From positions 62,001 to 126,000 of the forward strand of contig JAKATN010000001.1 of assembly GCA_021818715.1 (NCBI GenBank): DNA of 64,000 nucleotides. The letters are read 5' to 3'. The notes beneath the pieces were generated by a model, which saw nothing but the letters and a program-made list of their open reading frames with translations, made no database searches and had not been told where the DNA came from. This document shows, piece after piece, positions 56,033 through 61,661 of this stretch. This DNA comes from Thermoplasmata archaeon. GTDB taxonomy: Archaea; Thermoplasmatota; Thermoplasmata; Thermoplasmatales; Thermoplasmataceae. The position numbers and the translations under genes are program-made. Each line of letters opens with the position of its first letter. Position 1 is the stretch's first letter.

Positions 56033-57712
56033 ATGACAAGATTCGTTCTGGTATCCGATACTACATTAAGTTACGAATACAGGAATTTCCCGCTGCTCGA
56101 CTTTCTACCGAGTGCACCCAGCAGGGCCATTCCTCCAGCAATCTATAAATTTCTGAAGGGGCCTCCGCCGGAGGTGAAGCCGAACGGCGAACTGCTCAGG
56201 GCGCCCTATTCCGTAAGGAAACTGCAGGCATCCCTCCTGAGGAAGTTTGACAGGAAGGACATCGCTGTTGCGCACGACGACTATCTTGCGAATTTCATAG
56301 ATGACAAAACCGAGGTCATCGGCATTTCGACAATGGATCCATTGGGCGTTGGCCCGACAACAATGTCATATTACGCTCTCAGGGGCGGAAATATGATGGC
56401 CTGGGTCAGGAAAGACTGGGACAGCCTGCTGGAAAAGGTTAACAGGGCGAGGAGAGGCAAGAAAGCAAAGCTCATTGTCGGTGGTCCAGGTGCATGGGAG
56501 TTTACCATCCTCAGGGACGAAATTGAAAAATACAACTTTGATTATATTTTCCAGGGAGAGACAGATGACATAGCTCCAGCGCTGTTCGAACAGGTTGCAA
56601 CAGATAGCATTGATAGCACGATGTTTTACAGGGGCTACATGTCCTACGACGATAATTTCAGGAAAGTTATCAAGAAGGATGATAAGTTTCTCGCAAGGGG
56701 TATGAGCCTTACCCCTTACCCTAAGCTGGATCAGATCCCATTGATATCAGAGCCCTCGGTCAAGGGAATGGTAGAGGTTATGAGGGGATGCGGCATTGGC
56801 TGTGACTTCTGCGAAGTGACACTCAGGCCACTCAGATATTATGAACCGGAGGAAGTTGTGAAGGAAGTGACAATCAACGCCAGATCCGGGCAGATAAACG
56901 GATGGCTGCACTCGGATGAGATATTTGCCTACAAGCATGGGAACATGTATGAGCCCAATGAGGAAGCACTCACTGATCTATTTTCCTCCGTCATGGCTGT
57001 GGACGGAATTGAAAGGGCAAACCCAACGCATGGGAGAATCTCCATTCCTGCCGGTTATCCGGAGATGCTGGGGCGTCTGTCCAAGATTCTAAAGGCCGGG
57101 CCAAGGAACTGGATCGGAGTCCAGACTGGTGTGGAAACCGGAAGTGACTCGCTCGCGAAGAAGCACATGCCAAACAAGACCCTGCCGCTCAAGATCGGGC
57201 CGGATGGATCATGGGCTGACATCGTTTGGCAGGGAGTGTATAACGAGACAAAGTACTACTGGAGGCCAGCATTCACTATCCAGGTAGGGCAGGCTGGAGA
57301 AACGGAAGAAGACTACTGGGACACTATCGGGATGATAAACAGGCTCAGTTATTCGTACTCTGAGAACAGGCCCTTTGAATTCACGATCACGCCCTTGGTG
57401 AACGTTCCTCTTGGGAGGATAAAGTCAAGGAGCCTTAACAAAAGCATGCTTACGAAGAGCCAGCTAGCCGTATATTATGCCTCTTACAGGCATCTTGCCA
57501 AGATGGCAGTTAGGGACGGCTATGGCAATACCGAAGGGAACTTTTTTGCAAGGGCGGGCACAGGATCTATCATCTCTTTCGGTGGCCTGATGATGCTGAA
57601 ATATATCGAAAGGTTGGCAAGGAAGGCCGGCGTGGATCTGGATAAGGTGAAGAATTACTCAGTCCCCAGAGGCAAGGAGATCCATTCACTTAACCAGGCA
57701 ATCCGTGCCTAG
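56033..57712 (+). CDS. B12-binding-like / radical SAM protein (Ta0216-like family)
   Basis: 559 residues. The N-terminal region (about 75-185) has a Rossmann-like B12-binding fold pattern (TEVIGISTMDPLGVGP, AKLIVGGPGAWEF, FDYIFQGETDD). The radical SAM core follows, with C-x3-C-x2-C at Cys253, Cys257 and Cys260 in GCGIGCDFC. A C-terminal domain holds TPLVNVPLGRIKSRS and a Gly-rich FARAGTGSIISFGGLMML. It resembles a family I recall as Ta0216-type B12/SAM proteins from Thermoplasma; the reaction is unknown. The G of its TAG stop is also the first base of the GTG of the Orc1/Cdc6 gene, so the two are translationally coupled. Confidence 0.82.
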   Translation: MTRFVLVSDTTLSYEYRNFPLLDFLPSAPSRAIPPAIYKFLKGPPPEVKPNGELLRAPYSVRKLQASLLRKFDRKDIAVAHDDYLANFIDDKTEVIGISTMDPLGVGPTTMSYYALRGGNMMAWVRKDWDSLLEKVNRARRGKKAKLIVGGPGAWEFTILRDEIEKYNFDYIFQGETDDIAPALFEQVATDSIDSTMFYRGYMSYDDNFRKVIKKDDKFLARGMSLTPYPKLDQIPLISEPSVKGMVEVMRGCGIGCDFCEVTLRPLRYYEPEEVVKEVTINARSGQINGWLHSDEIFAYKHGNMYEPNEEALTDLFSSVMAVDGIERANPTHGRISIPAGYPEMLGRLSKILKAGPRNWIGVQTGVETGSDSLAKKHMPNKTLPLKIGPDGSWADIVWQGVYNETKYYWRPAFTIQVGQAGETEEDYWDTIGMINRLSYSYSENRPFEFTITPLVNVPLGRIKSRSLNKSMLTKSQLAVYYASYRHLAKMAVRDGYGNTEGNFFARAGTGSIISFGGLMMLKYIERLARKAGVDLDKVKNYSVPRGKEIHSLNQAIRA

Positions 57713-58833
57713 TGAGCATGAGAATAATTAGATACCCTGACGCTCTTGAAAGTTCCTTCATTCCTAACAAACTGGCGTACAGGGAAAAAGAGATATCCAC
57801 CATATCAGGCCTTGTGTTTTCATCCCTGATGCGCGGTTTATCCACACCGCTCTGGATTTACGGACCTGCCGGCGTGGGTAAGACAGTCACGTTAAAGTAC
57901 CTCCAGAAAGCTACGACCGAACCCAGGATATTTTACGAAAATGCTCTCTCACACGGATCGATGCGGGCAATACTTGTATCCGTTCTCGGGCAGCTTGGGA
58001 AACTGGTTCCGCCTGCAGGGATCACATACAAGCAGATCTTCACTGCTCTGAGTGAGTTCCGCAAGGGGGCCGGCAAGTCCATGGTCATAGTGATTGACGA
58101 AGCTGCGCATCTTTACATGGAACCGGAAGGCATTTACAACCTTAACAGGGCACCGGAGCTTTATGGACTTAACATCTCGCCAATCTACATTTCCATCGAA
58201 GCGCCTGAAATCCATTCCTCATTCAGGGAGTTTTCAGGTTCGTTGAGGATGGAGTCCCTCAGGTTCAGGAAGTACGATGCCGGGGAACTGTATGGAATAA
58301 TTCTTGACAGGGCAAGGCGATCGCTTTCTGATGGTTCGTGGAACGAGGAAACACTGCGGTACATCGCCGAATCCGCTGAGGGCTACGGCAGTGCAAGAGT
58401 TGCAATTGAGGTGCTGCAGAAATCCGCCCTGATTGCGGAGCACAGAGGATCAGAAGCAATCGAACCTGACGACATCCGCAGTGCAATATCAATGATTGAT
58501 CCCTTCGTTACTGAAAGCAAGCTGTCCGAACTCAGCGACAGGGACCTGATAACACTTCTCGCAATCTGCAGAATCCTCAGGCATTCTGTCAGCACAGGCG
58601 TCAAGGAAATTGCGCGCGAGGTGAGATCCGTTTCAGACGAATTCCCTGTGAGGAGCCAGGATTTCAGGGTTTACGATAGCATCAGGAGACTTGAAAGACT
58701 CGGGTTCATAAAGGGAAAGATAGTGGGAATGGGTGACAGGAAGGGAGTTTCAAAAGTCATACAGATCAGTGACATACCTGTCAGCGTGCTCTCGGGGAAG
58801 ATTGAGAACATCCTTTCGGTCATGGCGGGATGA
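57712..58833 (+). CDS. Orc1/Cdc6-family AAA+ ATPase
   Basis: 373 residues from GTG 57712 (ATG 57718 is an alternative). Walker A GPAGVGKT (51-58), Walker B MVIVIDEAAH (Asp129, Glu130), and a winged-helix C-terminal third (about 275-365, with SVSTGVKEIAREVRSVSDEF and YDSIRRLERLGFIKGKIVG). Archaeal members bind origins or, like Sulfolobus Orc1-2, regulate the DNA-damage response. The N-terminus is short, and it is coupled to a radical SAM gene rather than standing alone. Its 3' end overlaps the convergent PolB gene by 84 bases. Confidence 0.88.
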   Translation: MSMRIIRYPDALESSFIPNKLAYREKEISTISGLVFSSLMRGLSTPLWIYGPAGVGKTVTLKYLQKATTEPRIFYENALSHGSMRAILVSVLGQLGKLVPPAGITYKQIFTALSEFRKGAGKSMVIVIDEAAHLYMEPEGIYNLNRAPELYGLNISPIYISIEAPEIHSSFREFSGSLRMESLRFRKYDAGELYGIILDRARRSLSDGSWNEETLRYIAESAEGYGSARVAIEVLQKSALIAEHRGSEAIEPDDIRSAISMIDPFVTESKLSELSDRDLITLLAICRILRHSVSTGVKEIAREVRSVSDEFPVRSQDFRVYDSIRRLERLGFIKGKIVGMGDRKGVSKVIQISDIPVSVLSGKIENILSVMAG

Positions 58834-60828
58834 AGCCAGGTTCTTTTCTGCCGATTTTATCATGAAATCGAATGGCTCGAAGGATCTTTCCAGCATTTTT
58901 ATGTACATTTCACGATCGAAGCCATGCCCTTCACCGGTTTTGCTGAAGATCCCGCTACGCCTATCCGCGACAACCGCGTCCACGCTTTCGCCAGGATTCA
59001 GCTCTATGCCGGATTTCTTCAGGTCACTGAGCAGTTTCCTGGTTACGGTATTCACGGCGTACTCCTCCGGCCTTCTGGTGATGTGGAACCTTAAGGAAAG
59101 GTCTTCAGCATCCGCCAATTGCAATTTTGCCGCAAACTGCTTTTTCATTTTTTCCAACTCCTGTTTTTTCGCCAGTACCTCTGCGTCATTGCTGCATGAG
59201 GAGAACAATGAAGCTGCGGATCTCTGAAAATCCTTGCATATGCCGGGGACGTTTTTCCTCCTTAAATCGAACCCCCTGATCTTGAACGTGCTGTCATATC
59301 TCCACCCTATGTATGATCCCGGAGATCCATAACCATCTCTGGCAGGGGGAAACAGCACCCATTTGTATCTGCTGTCGACCACTATGTCGATCCTGGTCCT
59401 GTCCTTTATTCTCTGCAGGAGTTCCTCTATCACGCCATCTCCGGAAACCCACAGGGAATCGACAATCCCATGTACGATCCTGAAGCCCATTTTCTGTGCC
59501 TCCTCTATGGCAGCAGAGAGAGCCCATCTGCCTATTGCCGTTATTGACTCATGCACCTCTATCTTCCCGAACTTTGCGTTCTTGTATCCGGTGTATCCGA
59601 AAGAGGTGAGCAGGAGCCATTTTAGGGCTGTATCCCTGTTTCTGTAGGTCGGATTCTTATCCCTTACTGACTTGTAAAACAGCCTTCTTTCCAGGAGTTT
59701 TTCCAGGGCTCCGGAAAGAAACCCCCTGGGGGAACTCCGCACCCTGTAGCCCAGTTCCGGAACAACATAATCACCGTCGCCAAAGGTCTCAGGGGAAAGA
59801 TTGTATCTCACGATTATGCTGGGATACATCGAAGAGAAGTCAATTTCCGAGGTGTTCCAGTAGAGACCTGGATCCGGCTGAAGCGTCAGCCCGCCACGAT
59901 CAGCCAATCTAAGGAGCGAAAGAGGTTTCGGGTTTTCATGGTCATCCTTGTATGATGGCACCAGTATCCCGAATCTTATGGCTTCAGATAGTTCAAGTGC
60001 AGAGACAGCAGTCCCAGGTGTCACTATGGAGGCAGTCTGAGGAGGAAGCCTGGATATTCTTGAGACCTCCATGATGCCGGCGATCCCTGCCTCGGAATAA
60101 ATGAAAGAATCTGAATCGATGCATATCTTTCCACGGATGGAAATTCTTTCTCCGGTGTAGTGTATCTGGCCATACGATTCATAGGTCTCGCCTCTTCTCC
60201 TGTGAAAGTCAACCCTTCCAATCCCTCTCTCATTGAATTCATTCAACAGCTTTGTGAAGCCGGAGGAGCGGTTAGTATAGACCACAATGATTGATGAGGA
60301 AATCCTGTCGTAAATTTCAGAATAGAGGCCGTTATCAATATCCAGGAAAGTTTTCCCGTCCAGTTTGATCTTCACAATTTCATGGCCGGACATTATTGGC
60401 GTTATGGACGTTGAGGGTATTTCAGGGTCTGGGGATTCAGGCGATGCAATATGGAACAGCGTGTAAGATTTCTCCGAAAGGTACCGGTGCGGCATATTAA
60501 GGTCACCGTTGAAGAGCTTTATCTTCCTCCTCAGCCCCGAATCCTCCAGGAATTTCCTTATCAGTCTGATCTTTGATGGGGGCAGCCTGATCTCCAGCCC
60601 TTCAATTTCTCCATAAATGCTTCTTCTGGTGCTTTCGGAGACCCTTATCCCCCTTACTAATTCGAGTTGATCCCTCGCAAAGCTCAGGTCATGCAGATTC
60701 CCCGAAAGAAAGACCCATGTGACATACCTGTGATTCTCGGTCTTTACTGTCCCGTCCCTGTAGTACCAGAGGGAAACAACATCATTCCCGGTTGCATTTA
60801 TCAGTACCGGAGGATCATCGATCGTTAT
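58750..60828 (-). CDS. divergent family-B DNA polymerase (PolB2-like)
   Basis: The first ATG is at 60495 (581 residues), but the same frame is open for another 111 codons to an ATA at 60828, and that part reads like a polymerase N-terminus (ILINATG..., SLWYYRDGTV, LFNGDLNMPHRYL). No ATG/GTG/TTG lies there. ATA 60828 overlaps the preceding TAA as ATAA, like the ATGA overlaps elsewhere; the total would be 692 residues. Motif A DFSSMYPSII is intact (Asp330); motif B Lys403; motif C reads HGIVDS rather than YGDTDS, keeping only the second Asp (Asp457). No exonuclease FD-x-E motif is visible. This fits the short archaeal PolB2 group, thought to have weakened polymerase and lost exonuclease activity. 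Confidence 0.85.
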   Translation of the reverse strand: MTIDDPPVLINATGNDVVSLWYYRDGTVKTENHRYVTWVFLSGNLHDLSFARDQLELVRGIRVSESTRRSIYGEIEGLEIRLPPSKIRLIRKFLEDSGLRRKIKLFNGDLNMPHRYLSEKSYTLFHIASPESPDPEIPSTSITPIMSGHEIVKIKLDGKTFLDIDNGLYSEIYDRISSSIIVVYTNRSSGFTKLLNEFNERGIGRVDFHRRRGETYESYGQIHYTGERISIRGKICIDSDSFIYSEAGIAGIMEVSRISRLPPQTASIVTPGTAVSALELSEAIRFGILVPSYKDDHENPKPLSLLRLADRGGLTLQPDPGLYWNTSEIDFSSMYPSIIVRYNLSPETFGDGDYVVPELGYRVRSSPRGFLSGALEKLLERRLFYKSVRDKNPTYRNRDTALKWLLLTSFGYTGYKNAKFGKIEVHESITAIGRWALSAAIEEAQKMGFRIVHGIVDSLWVSGDGVIEELLQRIKDRTRIDIVVDSRYKWVLFPPARDGYGSPGSYIGWRYDSTFKIRGFDLRRKNVPGICKDFQRSAASLFSSCSNDAEVLAKKQELEKMKKQFAAKLQLADAEDLSLRFHITRRPEEYAVNTVTRKLLSDLKKSGIELNPGESVDAVVADRRSGIFSKTGEGHGFDREMYIKMLERSFEPFDFMIKSAEKNLASSRHDRKDVLNLPREHADRYVTDLYDF

Positions 60829-61061
60829 CCCACGCTTTTATTGTCACGTATCATCTTGAAAAGCTCGAAAATTATCGACATAAGGTACCCGGTCTCGGTG
60901 TTTACCGCCGAAAAATTCACCTCCGGGGCATGCAGTCTTCCAAGGCTGAGCAGGCTGTTAAAAAGGTCCCTATCCTCCACACTCATCAAGGCGCCCATTT
61001 TACTCAACTCAAAAGTTATGGCATCGATTTTCTGCCTTACAGTGGGAGTGGTTCTTCCCAT
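60825..61061 (-). CDS. small helical protein of the PolB2 operon
   Basis: 78 residues, nearly all alpha-helical: TVRQKIDAITFELSKMGALMS, then ERDLFNSLLSLGRLHAP, and a last helix GYLMSIIFELFKMIRDNK. No known family and no HTH obvious. The start lies inside the end of the RecA-like gene (25-base overlap), and the stop overlaps the proposed PolB2 start, so all three are coupled. It is probably a subunit or adaptor of the polymerase; inferred from position. Confidence 0.65.
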   Translation of the reverse strand: MGRTTPTVRQKIDAITFELSKMGALMSVEDRDLFNSLLSLGRLHAPEVNFSAVNTETGYLMSIIFELFKMIRDNKSVG

Positions 61062-61501
61062 AGGTATAACCCTTTATTCCGGTCAAGTTTCGGGTGATCG
61101 AGGGCAGCCTTCTGCATGTAAAGGGAATGGATCCCAAGGTCTCCGACTATGTTGACTGCAATTACTGCACCCTTGAAATAGGTCTTGATCCTGATTATCT
61201 CCATAATAGACTCAAAGCATTCCCTGGACCAGTTCCTTATGATGCTGCCCCTGAGAACGATGTAAAATGCATCACTGTCATTGGTCATCAGGACATTTTC
61301 AAGCTGATATGGGGTAAGTATCCTGACAGCATGGATCTTATCAGTATCATGGCGCGGTAGGTAATTTTCAACATCCAGTATTATGCCATCGGAGGCAAGT
61401 ATTGTGATCTTGCCGCCTCTTGATACAATGGAGGAAGCGAATTTGAATGCGTCTTCACTGCTAAACAGATCGGACTTTTTCACCTGCAATATTCCCTTCA
61501 T
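61037..61501 (-). CDS. probable inactivated RecA-like protein of the PolB2 operon
   Basis: 154 residues. Beta/alpha pattern matching the RecA/RadA core after the P-loop: GGKITILASDGIILDVENYLP, KIHAVRILTPYQLENVLM, DAFYIVLRGSIIRNW in place of Walker B, and FKGAVIAVNIVGDLGI where RecA has the conserved N-Q switch. No Walker A motif is present, so it should not hydrolyse ATP. TATA-like ATATTATTC (61524-61532, minus strand) is 27 bases before ATG 61501. First gene of the operon with the helical protein and PolB2. The RecA-like assignment is by pattern only. Confidence 0.5.
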   Translation of the reverse strand: MKGILQVKKSDLFSSEDAFKFASSIVSRGGKITILASDGIILDVENYLPRHDTDKIHAVRILTPYQLENVLMTNDSDAFYIVLRGSIIRNWSRECFESIMEIIRIKTYFKGAVIAVNIVGDLGIHSLYMQKAALDHPKLDRNKGLYLWEEPLPL

Positions 61502-61523
61502 AGATTAATATATGGTCGATATA

Positions 61524-61532
61524 GAATAATAT
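61524..61532 (-). promoter_or_regulatory. TATA box of the PolB2 operon
   Basis: ATATTATTC on the minus strand, about 27 bases before ATG 61501; implies a leaderless mRNA. Confidence 0.45.
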
Positions 61533-61661
61533 GTTGCCATGGGACAAAAATGTGCAAATGGCTCTATATGCGCTTTTTCCATGATATTATGGTCATCGCA
61601 TGCCAGCAGTTCTGAGAACAATTAAGTAAAGATAAGCAATTGGCAGATCGATAAAAACAGG

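Follow-up and report, generated by a model that had tools for sequence, protein, structure and literature searches.

Three minus-strand genes of a Thermoplasmata archaeon, encoding proteins of 154 and 78 amino acids (aa) and a B-family DNA polymerase, converge on a plus-strand gene for an Orc1/Cdc6 protein, which raises the question of what this cassette is and what controls it. The locus was analyzed in a stretch of 64,000 nucleotides (assembly GCA_021818715.1, contig JAKATN010000001.1, positions 62,001 to 126,000; hereafter, the window), which belongs to a 1.39-Mb genome of the Thermoplasmatales type. The three genes are a PolB2 mutasome operon in the order iRadA-PPB2-PolB2, and the gene that they converge on encodes a second Orc1/Cdc6 paralogue, termed Orc-2 here. 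The reading that we favor, with a probability of about 0.6, is that this translesion mutasome operon has an operator of the damage-response type and is part of a small regulon run by Orc-2. The cassette, its Orc1/Cdc6 neighbor, and the mutasome idea have already been published (Makarova 2014, PMC4104785; Timinskas 2025, PMC11791011), whereas the operator and the regulon are not described in either report. All four genes lie where an earlier note, made from the sequence alone, had placed them:

61037-61501, minus strand: iRadA, 154 aa, predicted RecA/RadA fold without Walker A (AlphaFold2 model, Foldseek, conserved SDGI and RILTxYQL motifs)
60825-61061, minus strand: PPB2 (arCOG07300-like), 78 aa, small helical protein with an N-terminal MGRT (sequence, iterative profile)
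58750-60828, minus strand: PolB2, ~692 aa, without an ATG, GTG, or TTG start (NF004416, tree, start analysis, dN/dS)
57712-58833, plus strand: Orc-2, second Orc1/Cdc6 paralogue and candidate regulator (hidden Markov models, Orc tree, co-occurrence)

The coupling of the three genes and their convergence on the Orc1/Cdc6 gene, as the earlier note had described them, are borne out by these coordinates and by the overlaps, which amount to 25 bp between iRadA and PPB2, an ATAA shared by the PPB2 stop and the probable PolB2 start in the junction sequence, and 84 bp between PolB2 and Orc-2. The polymerase scored 554 bits against NF004416 (cut-off, 516) and, in a tree from which PolB1 was left out, grouped with archaeal PolB2 and a bacterial one, separated at 100/100 from the PolB3 of its own genome and that of Thermoplasma, in agreement with the suggestion that it is PolB2-like. 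Its catalytic motif has IVD in place of DTD, reading GIVDSLW where PolB3 has GDTDS, and the D(K/R) motif for PPB2 contact is present as D313-R314, with D313 invariant in 17 sequences. The N-terminus of the 78-aa protein, MGRTTPTVRQ, contains the MGRT motif described for PPB2 (PMC11791011), known members of which have ~80-90 aa. The gene order and these features, together with the RecA-like fold discussed below and the Orc1/Cdc6 neighbor, are those of the PolB2 mutasome typified by the Sulfolobus Dpo2 operon. An inactivated RadA, a small helical protein (arCOG07300), and often an arORC2 gene were reported to accompany PolB2 (PMC4104785); a later study introduced the names PPB2 and iRadA, put forward a mutasome of five subunits (a heteropentamer), and found orc1/cdc6 enriched nearby (PMC11791011). 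The operon in the window differs in that its polymerase has no canonical start and that PolB2 and Orc-2 overlap in antisense.

The 154-aa protein had been taken for a RecA relative without Walker A, and the absence of Walker A was evident on inspection of its sequence. Searches by sequence with Pfam, NCBIfam, phmmer, and a profile search of the Protein Data Bank (PDB) gave no match to RecA, and the fold claim therefore rests on the structure model. The AlphaFold2 model had a predicted local distance difference test score (pLDDT) of 80-92 over most of the core, and the best PDB matches found by Foldseek were RecA chains (probability 1.0, E ~1e-3, TM 0.5), which supports a RecA fold with modest strength as an assignment at the level of the fold. 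The parallel with the bacterial ImuA that had been drawn for this protein holds as a functional likeness, whereas the published comparison is instead with Pol V (UmuD'2C-RecA).

The linkage of these genes is kept among relatives. PolB2 was present in 49 of the 61 genomes searched, and of 90 loci, 87 had PPB2 (counted by an iterative profile search around the PolB2 loci), 69 had iRadA, and 57 had an Orc gene nearby. The PPB2-PolB2 and Orc linkage is well beyond chance. Within the window's own family, the Orc gene is convergent in nearly all loci, so that the neighborhood survey upheld the proposed linkage through the family; elsewhere in the order, other families have the operon without an adjacent Orc gene. 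None of the three outcomes that the earlier note had named as counting against it was observed. At one locus (L095:5327-5983), iRadA and PPB2 seem to be fused in a single open frame. Of 41 genomes of the order, only three (G012, G020, and G021) yielded a Y-family polymerase (PF00817), and one of these (G021) lacks PolB2. Because most of these genomes gave no Y-family polymerase, PolB2 may be their main translesion enzyme.

As for what controls the operon, the sequences upstream of iRadA have an element in common, with the consensus cTCATTTTCTCATTTTTT, which is represented in the window as follows:

61546-61561, minus strand: candidate operator CCATTTGCACATTTTT, containing two CATTT half-sites at a distance of 8 bp, its end 44 nt ahead of the iRadA ATG
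61521-61530, minus strand: AT-rich TATA-like region ATTATTCTAT, ~20-29 nt before the ATG

Motif discovery by expectation maximization on 53 dereplicated promoters gave 16.9 bits, compared with 7.2-7.7 bits in dinucleotide shuffles, and 48 of the 53 promoters scored at least 11 bits, a count made on the training data. In two Thermoplasmatota families, the end of the operator mostly lies 44-52 nt ahead of the operon ATG; its form in the promoters of family f3 examined is TTCATTTTTTCATTTTTT or close to this, in many cases accompanied by further half-sites. The pattern CTCATTTNCTCATTTT had 26 matches in the 61 genomes and none when reversed as a control, and among 24 sites with no more than one mismatch, 18 have an ATG 43-52 nt downstream, compared with 72 of 840 with five mismatches. 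Across 35 operator-bearing promoters, the AT fraction reaches 0.86-0.97 at -28 to -25, which suggests a TATA box and a leaderless mRNA; the operator would therefore lie just upstream of the transcription factor B recognition element (BRE). Activation is the mode of control suggested by this position upstream of the BRE and TATA box. The operator is well supported and appears to be new, as a search of the open-access literature for this motif and for a damage regulon in Thermoplasmatales returned nothing relevant.

The exact 16-mer of the window occurs twice in its own genome. A third match to the pattern there (C1:61463), located between convergent genes, probably arose by chance, and matches inside long genes (L246, L274, and L283) were likewise taken as chance. 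In genome G018, TnpB/IS605-like elements or their remnants contain the operator within a flank that is repeated (L204, L212-L215, L292, and L294), and these were set aside.

Besides the PolB2 operons, the operator is found at a like spacing before genes for small proteins of 35-69 aa. The candidate regulon, mapped by pattern searches and hence incomplete, comprises the following sites:

L196, L197, L208, L238, L263, L312, L314: small-protein family A
L199, L203, L282: small-protein family B (L199 and L203 at 55-69 nt)
L209, L302: small-protein family C
L205, L290: MazE-like family D (Pfam E 2e-4, below the cut-off)
L264: Nre repair gene (PF04894, 1e-20), site at +48 with two mismatches
L298: MoxR ATPase, site with two mismatches

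Nre is a DNA-repair protein (PMC4929162). In a blind test, 77 genomes of the family were searched with the family A proteins only, the operator not being used for selection. Of the 15 scorable independent family A homologues, 11 had an operator of at least 14 bits, compared with 2.5% of random windows, and the operator was always the best-scoring position of its locus. Furthermore, all four genomes of the window's genus have two strong sites each, which belong to the PolB2 operon and to a gene for a protein of 59-69 aa; the second site of the window's own genome is at C42:131109, with its ORF at 131172, outside the window. This is a 66-aa ORF (L187:5172-5372; C42 ~131172-131369) behind an exact copy of the operator of the PolB2 operon at equal spacing, and small ORFs related to it stand at operator sites of other genus members (L217/L219, L221, and L222).

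The candidate for the protein acting at this operator is Orc-2, which matched Cdc6_lid (6.6e-16), Cdc6_C (3.6e-5), and TIGR02928 (2e-43) and has a winged helix and an AAA+ domain in which the Walker motifs A (GPAGVGKT) and B (VIVIDE) are both intact. In the Orc tree, a universal Orc is split at 100/100 from a second clade, which holds the PolB2-linked Orc and the second Orc of f3. Every genome searched has an Orc, and three f1 genomes without PolB2 (G004, G021, and G024, two of them incomplete) have the universal Orc only. PolB2 is present in family f4; of its four PolB2-bearing genomes counted, three have a single Orc, and the operon promoters of the family have no operator. In genus g5, the Orc-2 gene is itself preceded by the operator, 45 nt from its start codon. 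There is also a precedent in Sulfolobus, where Orc1-2, a non-initiator Orc, activates Dpo2 (PolB2) and binds promoters with ANTTTC (PMC9738581). From the separate clade, the co-occurrence of the operator with Orc-2, the g5 promoter site, and this precedent, we infer that Orc-2 may be the regulator. Thus, the earlier proposal that the cassette has its own regulator is strengthened by an operator before the operon, by its co-occurrence with a second Orc, and by its presence before the Orc gene in one genus, with the role of Orc-2 in it still a matter of inference.

Orc-2 and Sulfolobus Orc1-2 have several features in common: both are second, non-initiator Orc1/Cdc6 proteins with Walker A and B motifs and a winged helix, PolB2 is a target (here, a putative one), and the promoter motif is short and T-rich. 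In contrast to the Sulfolobus regulon, the operator here is a tandem TCATTTT repeat, the putative targets are mostly small proteins, and no TFB3, Ups, or Ced targets were seen. The family consensus contains ATTTTC.

Several observations weigh against the reading that we favor. The window site has no ANTTTC, so that the match to the Sulfolobus motif is loose, and its half-sites, at a distance of 8 bp, would leave little room for two Orc monomers. Thermoplasma volcanium has Orc-2 but only a weak site of 6.1 bits, and the f4 genome G052 has two Orc matches, outside the tree. An operator was looked for before the radical SAM-orc operon of the window and its genus and before the second Orc genes of f3 and was not found, and autoregulation of Orc-2 is therefore not general. 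The link to Nre comes from one genome only, and the small proteins are without known function.

Some of these points would be accommodated if the operator were real but served another transcription factor instead of Orc-2, with the Orc gene linked for replication reasons, such as origin control at stalled forks; a role in replication initiation was indeed proposed by Makarova et al (PMC4104785). The tight spacing of the direct repeat fits this account, as does the position of Orc-2 in the window, where it is not under the operator but in a likely operon with the gene before it:

56033-57712, plus strand: B12-binding-type radical SAM protein (Pfam PF04055), adjoining Orc-2 in most loci of the family

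The stop of this gene overlaps the GTG start of Orc-2, the two genes are probably co-transcribed, and they are tightly linked in most family loci. What speaks against it is that the operator and Orc-2 occur together across families, that the operator is absent in f4, where a second Orc is mostly absent, and that the two meet at the Orc-2 promoter of g5. We consider this account rather unlikely, with clearly the smaller share of the probability.

With Orc-2 as the regulator, the following mechanism can be proposed. Orc-2 would bind the tandem TCATTTT repeats and, after DNA damage, switch on the mutasome, in which PolB2, with iRadA and a PPB2 trimer, would extend mismatched primers past lesions. 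The small proteins would be induced alongside and may act on replication or division. In the bacterial SOS response, small proteins of this kind can block division, which serves here as an analogy and no more. Extending the proposal to a whole SOS-like regulon of Thermoplasmatota, in which Orc-2, as a duplicated replication initiator, activates the TCATTTT-operator promoters of the mutasome, of rapidly evolving small proteins that may halt replication or division, and of repair genes, with PolB2 throttled by a non-AUG start, is tentative and, in our estimate, falls a little short of even odds. The likeness to bacterial SOS, where LexA boxes control Pol V and cell-division inhibitors, is that a regulon of few sites joins a multi-subunit translesion polymerase with small proteins; the difference is that the candidate regulator is an AAA+ Orc, probably an activator, instead of LexA, and that the operator is another one. 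To our knowledge, no SOS system of the LexA type is known in archaea. In the literature examined, no archaeal damage-response circuit other than that of Sulfolobus is described. A conserved operator that links the PolB2 mutasome, small proteins, and a repair gene and that tracks a second Orc makes damage-response control testable in another archaeal phylum and suggests that in these acidophiles a spare replication protein may run a gene network resembling SOS.

The regulon might instead answer another stress, such as acid, oxidation, or growth phase, with PolB2 as part of a general mutability program. Most targets are the small proteins without known function, and the sites at the MoxR ATPase and MazE-like genes would also suit such a response, but PolB2 operons of Sulfolobales are damage-induced (PMC11791011) and an operator stands at an Nre repair gene, and we regard this alternative as rather unlikely, slightly more so than a different regulator.

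The translational part of the proposal concerns the start of PolB2. The earlier note was right in the identity of the short polymerase, whereas the start given in the ORF list, 60495 (581 aa), did not hold: the frame is open to 60837, giving a protein of ~690 aa. In three of the four genus members, the frame has no ATG, GTG, or TTG before the conserved N-terminus. Codons 12-113 show conservation and purifying selection (dN/dS 0.17) and are therefore translated, which places the start upstream of 60495 at a non-canonical codon. The ATG at 60495 was rejected on account of the selection on the 113 codons upstream of it, and it is not conserved in L073; a CTG at codon 12 is unlikely, as it would give a shorter protein than the canonical starts of relatives do and falls within the first strand that the model shows. 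Because the ATAA at the PPB2/PolB2 junction stands where several relatives have ATGA or GTGA, initiation is predicted to occur most probably at AUA (ATA 60826-60828), coupled to PPB2 termination, with the adjacent ACG (60823-60825) as a possible alternative. All five Thermoplasma genomes examined (L166-L171) also have PolB2 without ATG, GTG, or TTG at the conserved N-terminus. There, an ACG follows shortly after GAGGTG, where some Ferroplasmaceae relatives have ATG, and is probably the start; the GAGGTG-ACG stretch also encodes PPB2, and its conservation is not independent evidence. No relevant report of such start codons was found in the open-access literature, and the non-canonical PolB2 start appears to be new. 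Coupled initiation at AUA would probably be weak and so limit the amount of the error-prone subunit compared with the PPB2 trimer; through non-AUG starts, a mutator would thus be held back at translation as well.

The lack of a start could also be explained by a frameshift fusion with PPB2 or by a truncated or dying gene. One PPB2-PolB2 fusion has been reported (PMC11791011), and three genomes share the lack of a canonical start; nevertheless, purifying selection extends through the N-terminal domain, relatives start at ATGA or GTGA overlaps at the same junction, and no obvious slippery heptamer was seen by inspection, which together make fusion or decay improbable compared with an AUA or ACG start.

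Finally, that the repeat is a mere general promoter element or AT-rich bias, as its T-rich composition near the TATA box might suggest, is very hard to reconcile with the reversed-pattern control (0 versus 26), the 16.9 bits against 7.7 in shuffles, the two strong sites in the genome of the window, and the 11 of 15 homologues in the blind test.

The convergent ends of the operon and Orc-2 give one further feature:

58750-58833, both strands: antisense overlap of the PolB2 and Orc-2 3' ends, 84 bp (coordinates), encoding a genus-specific PolB2 tail

In most relatives outside the genus, PolB2 matches stop near residue 663-665, and the C-terminal tail antisense to the Orc-2 3' end has a pLDDT of <50 in the model.

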